A program made the translations under genes and the position numbers. The notes beneath the pieces are model-generated. The model had not been told where the DNA came from and searched no databases. It saw only the letters and a list, made by a program, of their open reading frames with translations. A stretch of 34,150 nt of DNA from an uncultured Bacilli bacterium. GTDB lineage: Bacteria; Bacillota_I; Bacilli_A; RF39; UBA660. The DNA lies in assembly GCA_947624275.1 (NCBI GenBank), contig CANQJR010000005.1, forward strand, positions 1 to 34,150, given 5' to 3'. This document shows, one piece after another, positions 12,859-14,631 of the stretch; the stretch's first letter is position 1, and each line of letters opens with the position of its first letter.

Positions 12859-12878
12859 ATACATCATCTAACTTTTTT
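12853..12878 (+). terminator. Terminator of the licD gene
   Basis: GTTAGAT-acatc-ATCTAAC-TTTTTT, overlapping the stop codon. Confidence 0.8.
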
Positions 12879-12888
12879 CTAGATTTTT

Positions 12889-13770
12889 TTAGGCCTTAAT
12901 TTTATCTTTTTTATGGCGGATGATACTATAGACGACACCTAATATGATCATGACTACTAGTATGATGACAGAAAGTTTTAAGCAGGCTTTTAACAAATGA
13001 CTCACGACATCAAAAGATAGATCATAATCTTCCAAAATCATTTTACTGAACAATAACAAAAGACAATTGACAATAGCACTTAAAAAAGCAGCAATACCAA
13101 CTGTTATAGATGTCCAATTCAACCAACTAGCATTCTTCCACTTTAGAAGCATGATTAACAAAATCGAAATAGTCATCACTAGAATTAAATACATTTCTAA
13201 CTCGCTACCTAAAACGAGATGGATCATATCTAAATATTTATGATCTTCTTTCTCGATGACTGTTTCAATGACACTCGTATCAGGTAACATTTCTTGATAT
13301 TTATCTGTTTCTTTTTTGATTGTAGATATTATTTTATTTTTATCACTCGTCTTAATTTCATAATAACCACTAGCATTGATGTCATCAATCGCATCACTGA
13401 CTAATTTCTCTATATCATCATTCGTAATCAATTTTTGATTTTTACCAGTGACGGCATAATTGACAAGGTTACCTGTGACATCACCAAAAATACCTTTGAC
13501 TTCTTTAGAATCAATGAGTTTTATAACGACTTCATCTTTAACTCCCAATTCACGTGTCACTTCATAGATCGGTTCAAATAAATCGTCTAATTCCTTTTTC
13601 AATTCAGGAGACTCATCAACAATTTTTTCCACTTCTATATTTTGGACAAATTTTTTGACATTTTCTTTGACAAGAGCATTTTTAATGGGAAAAAGAAATA
13701 ATAAACCACTAGTCGATATGAACAAAACGATTATCAAAATGCTCAAAAATATCCCTTTAAAAAACTTCAT
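12889..13770 (-). CDS. Hypothetical membrane protein with large extracytoplasmic segment and several C-terminal TM helices
   Basis: 293 aa; N-terminal TM, ~150 aa polar domain, then three hydrophobic segments. Confidence 0.65.
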   Translation of the reverse strand: MKFFKGIFLSILIIVLFISTSGLLFLFPIKNALVKENVKKFVQNIEVEKIVDESPELKKELDDLFEPIYEVTRELGVKDEVVIKLIDSKEVKGIFGDVTGNLVNYAVTGKNQKLITNDDIEKLVSDAIDDINASGYYEIKTSDKNKIISTIKKETDKYQEMLPDTSVIETVIEKEDHKYLDMIHLVLGSELEMYLILVMTISILLIMLLKWKNASWLNWTSITVGIAAFLSAIVNCLLLLFSKMILEDYDLSFDVVSHLLKACLKLSVIILVVMIILGVVYSIIRHKKDKIKA

Positions 13771-13995
13771 AACTCACCCCAGAATAAAACTATTCATTAA
13801 GATTATAACATAAATATGATAATCTAATTAATTTCTTTTATTCACAACACATTTGAATATTAATATCAAACGATGTTTTTGTAAGTCGTCTTTTACGATG
13901 CTCAAAAATTTGCGATTACTATTTATCCGGTGTCCTAAAGAAAGAAGTTCAACAACTTTTTAATATTTATCTCTTTACCATACGAACACATTGTT

Positions 13996-14025
13996 TTGAC
14001 AATATACAAGTGTGTTTTCTAAATT
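13996..14025 (+). promoter_or_regulatory. Candidate promoter of the 25-aa peptide transcript
   Basis: TTGACA (13996-14001), 18-nt spacer, TAAATT (14020-14025). Confidence 0.45.
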
Positions 14026-14113
14026 AAAAAATTTAGTATCAATCCCCATTGTATGAAGAACATATGTTTGATACAATATTCCTGGATACATTTGAAATAT
14101 ATCAGGTGTTTTC

Positions 14114-14144
14114 CCTTTCTAGTTATCGAAAGATAAGAGAAAGG
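14114..14144 (+). promoter_or_regulatory. SD-proximal hairpin with GAAA tetraloop
   Basis: CCTTTCT-ag-TTATC-GAAA-GATAA-g-AGAAAGG; the 3' arm enters the AGGTGG Shine-Dalgarno (14142-14147). Confidence 0.6.
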
Positions 14145-14156
14145 TGGTGGTTCATT

Positions 14157-14234
14157 ATGACAAAAAGAGAACTTTCTCAATTTATTATAATTCTACTATT
14201 ATTTTTTGTAGTAATCACCTTACTATTTAGATAA
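14157..14234 (+). CDS. 25-aa hydrophobic single-TM peptide MTKRELSQFIIILLLFFVVITLLFR
   Basis: ATG preceded by AAGGTGGTGG SD at good spacing; charged N-terminus, hydrophobic core, C-terminal Arg; followed by hairpins and a terminator. Confidence 0.6.
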   Translation: MTKRELSQFIIILLLFFVVITLLFR

Positions 14235-14240
14235 TAAAAA

Positions 14241-14272
14241 CATCTGATTTCAACAATTGTTGATTTCAGATG
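14241..14272 (+). repeat. Near-perfect 32-nt inverted repeat
   Basis: CATCTGA-tt-TCAACAATTGTTGA-tt-TCAGATG. Confidence 0.7.
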
Positions 14273-14283
14273 CAATCCATAAG

Positions 14284-14328
14284 GGATAACATCTGATTCA
14301 CCCAATCAAATGTATCCTTTTTTATTTT
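14284..14328 (+). terminator. Rho-independent terminator of the peptide transcript
   Basis: GGATAACATCTGATT-caccc-AATCAAATGTATCC followed by TTTTTTATTTT. Confidence 0.75.
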
Positions 14329-14360
14329 ATGCAAGTTTCCTTGACAAATACATCGTAACA

Positions 14361-14386
14361 TAAAAACGCACTTTTATCAAGTGCGT
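14361..14386 (-). terminator. Terminator of the minus-strand tRNA transcript
   Basis: ACGCACTT/AAGTGCGT stem followed by TTTTT on the minus strand. Confidence 0.75.
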
Positions 14387-14426
14387 TATCTATTTCTACT
14401 CGAAAAGTCCGAGTTGGGTATCTATC

Positions 14427-14510
14427 TGGTGCAAGAGAGGAGACTTGAACTCCCACGATTTGCATCACTACCACCTCAAAGTAGCGTGTCTACCATTCCA
14501 CCACTCTTGC
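14427..14510 (-). tRNA. tRNA-Leu (GAG)
   Basis: GCAAGAG...CTACT-TTGAGGT-GGTAG...variable arm...GGGAGTTCAAGTCTCCT...CTCTTGCACCA; encoded CCA. Confidence 0.93.
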
Positions 14511-14554
14511 ATTATGACATAATAAAACCCTTGCACAAGGGTCTATTACATAAA

Positions 14555-14631
14555 TGGTGTCCCATGAGAGATTCGAACCCCCGACACACGCCTTAGAAGG
14601 GCGTTGCTCTATCCAACTGAGCTAATGGGAC
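14555..14631 (-). tRNA. tRNA-Arg (UCU)
   Basis: GTCCCATTAGCTCAGTTGGATAGAGCAACGCC-CTTCTAA-GGCGT...GGGGGTTCGAATCTCTC...ATGGGACACCA. Confidence 0.93.

Follow-up and report, generated by a model that had tools for sequence, protein, structure and literature searches.

The window, a stretch of 34,150 nucleotides of DNA that was analysed as a whole, belongs to a genome of 1.04 Mb that is 91% complete. Between a minus-strand gene (12889-13770) and a tRNA-Leu(GAG) gene, whose 3' end at 14427 forms the far border, it holds a compact unit composed of a promoter, a structured leader, a short ORF and a 3' module, with a predicted antisense RNA gene on the opposite strand (Table 1). The SD, the ORF, the two 3' hairpins and the U-tract described in the original prediction were all found in the sequence at their places; the antisense RNA gene is an element that it had missed.

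Table 1 Features of the unit and its surroundings, in window coordinates
Feature	Position	Strand	Sequence or elements	Basis or remark
Degenerate trailer, then tRNA 3'-end-like sequence	13877-13955		GGTGTCCT (tRNA 3'-end-like)	trailer part 13877-13934
Upstream block	13984-14032	+	AACACATTG..CAAGTGTGTT; CTAAATT..AATTTAG	two inverted repeats
Toxin mRNA promoter	14049-14077	+	TTGTAT 14049-14054, 17 nt, TACAAT 14072-14077	aligned leaders, 90 units
LexA/SOS box	14058-14070	+	GAACATATGTTTG	between -35 and -10 of the toxin promoter
5' clamp arm	14084-14095	+	GGATACATTTGA	predicted mRNA 5' end; perfect 12-bp complement of 14306-14317
Second clamp arm	14101-14110	+	ATCAGGTGTT	pairs with either AACATCTGAT copy (14239-14248 or 14288-14297)
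SD-masking hairpin	14114-14144	+	CCTTTCT..AGAAAGG	fold
SD	14140-14147	+	AAAGGTGG	read from sequence
Toxin-like ORF, 25 aa	14157-14234	+	MTKRELSQFIIILLLFFVVITLLFR	sequence; dN/dS 0.22 within type A
Hairpin H1	14241-14272		T-run 14240-14236	mRNA 3' UTR stem; in the minus-strand reading, antisense intrinsic terminator
3' stem and U-tract	14283-14323	+	GGGATAACATCTGATT..AATCAAATGTATCC	mRNA terminator
Predicted antisense RNA (antitoxin), ~113 nt	~14345 to ~14233	-		conserved promoter, 5' hairpin, terminator
Antisense 5' hairpin	14343-14332	-	CAAGGAAACTTG	
Antisense promoter	14380-14352	-	-35 TTGATA 14380-14375, 17 nt, extended -10 TGTTACGAT ending 14352	
Trailer with two hairpins	14368-14426			joins unit to tRNA 3' end; nhmmer E = 4.4e-15 (training member)
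tRNA-Leu(GAG)	14427-14510	-		3' end abuts unit

When nine genomes of the genus were searched by BLAST with the unit, several yielded strong relatives, which differed in sequence but kept the layout. As the 3' modules could not be aligned across types by MAFFT alone, nine of them were arranged manually, with N padding and the removal of a few loop or linker letters; in this alignment, two rows out of nine are shifted by one column. The covariance model built from these modules (R1; 139 positions, 36 pairs) matched in 100 of the 146 genomes sampled across the family, where a single genome holds up to 19 copies. Across the order it matched in 210 of 288 genomes, all, among the matches listed, in family f1. 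In a sample of 388 genomes of the phylum there were matches in nine, again all in f1, and the module was not found in the other families of that sample. These genome counts, for which stricter filters were used, are lower bounds. An independent search with a 29-base pattern taken from the 5' end of the antisense RNA gave at least 116 matching stretches among GTDB species genomes; their titles include uncultured Bacilli, uncultured Tenericutes and Candidatus Ventrenecus, and the order carrying the family is probably GTDB RF39. In relatives, both the ORF and the structure were found to be conserved.

The ORF is intact in 90 of 137 located units, which carry at least five peptide types on one RNA chassis. 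The dN/dS values, pooled per type, are 0.22 for type A, the type of the window (MTKREFSQFIIILLLFLVVIILLLK), 0.45 for type B (MKTKTFIIKVLKLIAIILFLLIIMIVVIKK), 0.14 for type C (MKKKDLLISFLILIIILLIVSLMILSIKK), 0.19 for type D (MNKKDFLILSLVILIFLLILLLFIVLI) and 0.52 for type E (MRKSEKYLCTIIILLIIVILVILIKIVPTV), and the peptides are under purifying selection. All five types share a basic polar N-terminus and one long hydrophobic stretch, mostly with K/R near the C-terminus. By strict criteria, an intact ATG ORF is present in 87 of the 124 units with full upstream sequence. The non-intact units show a frameshift, a nonsense mutation, a lost or altered start or a deletion beside a recognisable 3' module, and broken toxin ORFs next to 3' modules account for about a quarter of full-length copies. 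Such decay of the ORF beside kept antisense modules is as expected of a harmful gene, and bears only indirectly on toxicity, which is inferred. Two individual copies are recorded here separately: the window genome has a second 3' module copy, of another type, at a contig edge (G000:C50:1-90, L002), and L025 (G007:C1) has lost its ORF by deletion and kept the leader, the 3' module and the antisense promoter, the composition of a solitary antitoxin.

Comparison of the 90 intact relatives also placed the start of the toxin mRNA. Their aligned leaders have the form TTGTAT-17-TATAAT, with GAACAAATGTTTG within the spacer. The original prediction had assigned the promoter to TTGACA (13996-14001) and TAAATT (14020-14025), 18 nt apart. 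Both motifs are present, within an upstream block of a kind that also precedes other copies of the family, but the role of toxin promoter passed to the conserved pair ~50 bp further downstream, because relatives keep it, together with a LexA box, immediately ahead of the conserved mRNA start. From this promoter, transcription is predicted to begin at ~14084 and to yield an mRNA of ~242 nt (~14084-14325) that opens with the 5' clamp arm, and the 5' UTR shrinks to ~73 nt instead of the ~125 nt first proposed.

The box in the toxin promoter matches that of the SOS regulon of its own genome, which encodes LexA. The sequence GAACNNNNGTTYG has two exact matches in the window genome, one in the toxin promoter and one in the recA promoter, and lexA is preceded by two AAACAATTGTTTG sequences. 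In relatives, the box or a one-mismatch variant lies upstream of 19 of 20 recA and 20 of 21 lexA genes. Scored with a position weight matrix built from these recA and lexA boxes, the window box reached 18.9, and the median of the boxes themselves is 18.9. The same matrix found a LexA box in 41 of the 90 intact units, mostly directly before the -10, and ~0 in shuffles. We infer from the box, with no binding data, that the toxin promoter is probably switched by LexA. Not every member of the family can be taken as SOS-controlled: at the threshold used, a LexA box is missing from about half of the intact units, and control is mixed because other units carry GTTCGCTTGTTT at the -35 instead. This motif, or one similar to it, lies across the -35 of many type B and C units and some of types D and E (L075, L113, L122, L154 and L158 among them), where it replaces the LexA box.

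Folding bore out the earlier view of a self-contained structured unit and placed it beyond chance. The RNA 14032-14330 has a minimum free energy of -84.7 kcal/mol (z = -8.3), and 0/200 shuffles were equally stable. In addition to its role in the terminator stem, the 3' strand of that stem (14306-14317) forms pairs with the 5' end of the mRNA. In the full predicted mRNA, the probability of being unpaired is 0.19 for the SD and 0.00 for the start codon, and SD-masking hairpins occur in all five peptide types, each of different sequence. Across 76 units, the complementarity between leader and 3' end averages -23.9 kcal/mol within units versus -13.0 kcal/mol against other types, a cross-type contrast that is less sharp in types B-D, and 0/2000 permutations reached the sum observed for own partners, also when units were shuffled within types. 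Changes on both sides were seen in 31 of the 36 R1 pairs among 111 distinct modules, and compensatory change at 14/14 pairs of H1 (111 sequences). The covariation score of the 3' helices is 0.381, compared with 0.128 for shuffled and 0.045-0.062 for slid controls. As this alignment was fitted to the model, the shuffle and slide controls flatter the result; the leader complementarity test is independent of that alignment.

The predicted antisense RNA has its promoter just past the point where the mRNA terminates. Among 76 non-redundant units, 74 have the extended -10 (5.9 in shuffles), a statistic that is inflated since the family was partly gathered via the antisense promoter. The -35 lies outside both model R1 and the 29-base pattern and thus offers an independent test; it was found in 70/74 units, with 10 expected. 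By prediction only, the two transcripts converge and overlap at their 3' ends (mRNA end ~14325, antisense 14345-14233): the antisense RNA covers ~90 nt of the mRNA 3' UTR and spares the ORF except for the last 1-2 bases of the stop codon. The conserved elements make up a gene for an antisense RNA that could pair with the mRNA of the toxin; that it is transcribed is inferred.

Searches of sequence collections gave no name for the unit or its peptides, neither of which had a match in Pfam, NCBIfam, PADLOC, PHROGs, Rfam or the PDB sequence set, in agreement with the original prediction, which had placed the peptide outside any named family. An hmmscan of the five peptide types against Pfam (E<=10) returned no Fst, Ldr, Hok, TisB or Ibs, a search in which short peptides limit power, and Rfam returned no known RNA family at gathering or relaxed thresholds. 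Homology to TxpA/BsrG was not found at the profile level in Pfam, NCBIfam or Rfam (no direct comparison), and, as regards AapA, neither Pfam and NCBIfam nor the PDB sequences gave a match (no direct AapA comparison). Small-protein prediction catalogues outside the libraries searched could contain the peptides. A phage or plasmid origin was rejected after blastn against phages and plasmids gave nothing and two exact patterns matched 0 of 2.9 million viral contigs. In the full-text literature, we found no paper linking RF39 or uncultured Mollicutes to type I systems.

The idea of a type I toxin put forward for the 25-aa peptide is well supported, with toxicity and transcription inferred. The 90 intact relatives share the structured mRNA, the masked SD, the single-TM cationic peptide and the stable 3' end on which it rested; compensatory changes and purifying selection keep this layout, and the antisense RNA gene with its conserved promoter is present. 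We therefore read the unit, at a probability of about 0.83, as a member of an SOS-inducible chromosomal type I toxin-antitoxin family. The promoters, the LexA box, the ORF under selection, the helices, the antisense gene architecture and the copy number were established by computation, and transcription, LexA repression, toxicity, the part of RNase III and activation by 3' trimming are inferences. Purifying selection on the peptide would also fit a non-toxic small regulatory or structural membrane protein under antisense control, for instance an SOS-induced modulator of division or of the envelope; LexA control suits division inhibitors, and toxicity data are absent. We nevertheless consider this unlikely, as many paralogues with dissimilar peptides on a common RNA chassis, an ORF that is often lost where the antisense module is kept, and a double lock on translation are all traits of toxins and not of housekeeping small proteins.

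The neighbourhood of the units raises the question of mobility. An opposite-strand tRNA lies downstream of 40 of the 137 located units (~29%), nearly all 53-69 nt from the module, compared with 4.7% for random positions. The 101 tRNAs in the fetched loci divide into 37 with trailer and unit, 10 with the trailer only, 52 with neither and 2 with the unit only, a split that makes the trailer part of the element rather than a general feature of tRNAs. Units keep a fixed distance of ~57 nt to many different tRNA genes (Leu, Thr, Met, Arg, Phe and Ala), measured from the tRNA 3' end, and the terminator loop of the shared two-hairpin trailer (~60 nt) carries the antisense -35. Tandem arrays of units occur at L143 and L161. 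Upstream of the window unit, the degenerate trailer matched the nhmmer trailer profile at E = 0.58 over ~650 kb, and the sequence that follows it resembles, by eye, the 3' end of tRNA-Arg present beside other copies; with low confidence, this stretch is possibly the remnant of an older, decayed unit.

In two congeners (L280 and L281), a LicD gene directly adjoins tRNA-Arg. Relative to them, the window genome has ~1.6 kb extra at 12859-14555, consisting of the minus-strand gene, for which a Pfam match was not found, the unit and tRNA-Leu. Two further congeners carry yet other genes at this site. The LicD/tRNA-Arg site is variable, and the sequence comparison is compatible with an insertion, which is not proven. 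ARAGORN called 14555-14631 as tRNA-Pyl(CTA); this was rejected, since the loop CTTCTAA and the tRNA-Arg TCT of L280 indicate tRNA-Arg(TCT).

Up to 19 copies, tandem arrays, a constant spacing from tRNA 3' ends, a trailer common to the units and a locus that varies between congeners could all be explained by a mobile repeat, either MITE-like or a tRNA-targeting cassette, with ends that fold by chance and a peptide that is incidental or an aid to persistence. Such a repeat would not account for an ORF with dN/dS of 0.14-0.52 or for two oppositely placed conserved promoters and a LexA box; moreover, the complementary ends lie inside the repeated block, not at its borders, and a simple motif scan found no tyrosine recombinase signature near the units. 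As a full explanation it is thus quite improbable, and mobility and toxin-antitoxin function are not mutually exclusive. Finally, AT-rich sequence readily produces short hydrophobic ORFs and hairpins, but the fold z-score, the family-wide covariation and the peptides conserved in 90 intact units make a chance occurrence in AT-rich intergenic sequence beside a tRNA terminator extremely improbable, and it was rejected.

For the SOS-inducible toxin-antitoxin family, we propose the following course of events. LexA would keep the toxin promoter down until DNA damage relieves the repression. The toxin mRNA would be born closed, with local hairpins masking the SD and the start codon, and its 5' end would pair with the 3' end once the transcript is complete. 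The antisense RNA, starting downstream, would pair with the last ~90 nt of the mRNA, which probably makes the mRNA a target of RNase III, on the model of txpA/RatA and bsrG/SR4; at least a fragment of an RNase III gene was found in the window genome. Upon SOS or loss of the locus, the mRNA may outrun the antisense RNA, trimming or refolding could then open its ribosome site, and the 25-residue single-pass cationic peptide would enter the membrane and stop growth. For the opening step, either 3' trimming as in AapA or a change of the RBS stem as in bsrG could apply. The SD hairpin is local, and the SD is still paired in folds of the 3'-trimmed RNA; as far as these models go, simple 3' trimming does not explain activation, and the opening step is the weakest link of the proposal.

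The kind of system is already known; the family is apparently new in its sequence, its clade and its combination of controls. The aapA/IsoA systems of Helicobacter and related Epsilonproteobacteria encode small single-TM cationic peptides in several chromosomal copies, and their mRNAs combine a 5'-3' long-distance interaction and local SD hairpins with a cis antisense RNA (PMC6733600, PMC8309996) and are opened by 3' trimming (PMC6733600). The window family is alike in peptide length, membrane topology and charge, in copy number, in the 5'-3' lock and in its predicted cis antisense RNA. Unlike in aapA/IsoA, its antisense RNA overlaps only the 3' UTR, its toxin promoter holds a LexA box, its hosts are uncultured gut Bacilli and no profile links the peptides. 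In txpA/RatA and bsrG/SR4 of Bacillus subtilis, convergent genes give a toxin mRNA and an antisense RNA that overlap at their 3' ends, an arrangement attributed to every type I system of Gram-positives known by 2014, and the RBS of bsrG is held in a stem that changes on antisense pairing (PMC4147584). The predicted transcripts of the window family overlap likewise, and its RBS lies in a stem, as in bsrG; by contrast, the txpA and bsrG toxins are longer (TxpA 59 aa), sit on the skin and SPbeta elements and are not described as LexA-controlled in PMC4147584.

LexA-repressed, SOS-induced type I toxins are known from Escherichia coli as tisB/istR-1, dinQ/agrB and symE/symR, and TisB is a hydrophobic, membrane-inserting peptide of 29 aa (PMC4147584). 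The LexA box in the toxin promoter is what the window unit shares with these systems of Pseudomonadota. Unlike the antisense RNA here, IstR-1 is encoded divergently and targets a standby site within the 5' UTR. To our knowledge, neither a comparable 5'-3' clamp nor multicopy arrays are known for tisB, dinQ or symE. In hok/sok, the full-length mRNA is inert and closed by 5'-3' pairing, as proposed here; in contrast to the window family, Sok blocks translation of the upstream mok frame and the hok peptide is larger, and there is no Pfam match. The fst/ldr (par) family resembles the window family in its short single-TM toxin and, in Gram-positive members, its 3'-overlapping convergent RNA, yet none of the five peptide types matches Fst or Ldr in Pfam, and Rfam gave none.

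Descriptions of type I systems give them a narrow distribution, a pattern presumed to stem from search methods (PMC12390103). Here, a structure-based model exposes a dense family in an order of gut bacteria with small genomes: most of the genomes sampled have it, and 1-1.5 Mb can hold up to ~19 copies. Three kinds of control that mostly occur separately come together in it, namely a LexA promoter, an mRNA closed by 5'-3' pairing and a 3' antisense RNA in the Gram-positive style, and as a natural series of covarying RNA pairs it lends itself to studying the evolution of sense/antisense specificity. More tentatively, the family might be a self-spreading, SOS-wired chassis that swaps at least five peptide types, places a ~0.45-kb cassette at tRNA 3' ends and stacks in arrays; this we regard as possible and no more. 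The family offers a concrete DNA-damage response to seek in gut metatranscriptomes and, if the latter proposal is true, a whole order of gut bacteria would carry up to ~19 DNA-damage-triggered membrane toxins per genome.
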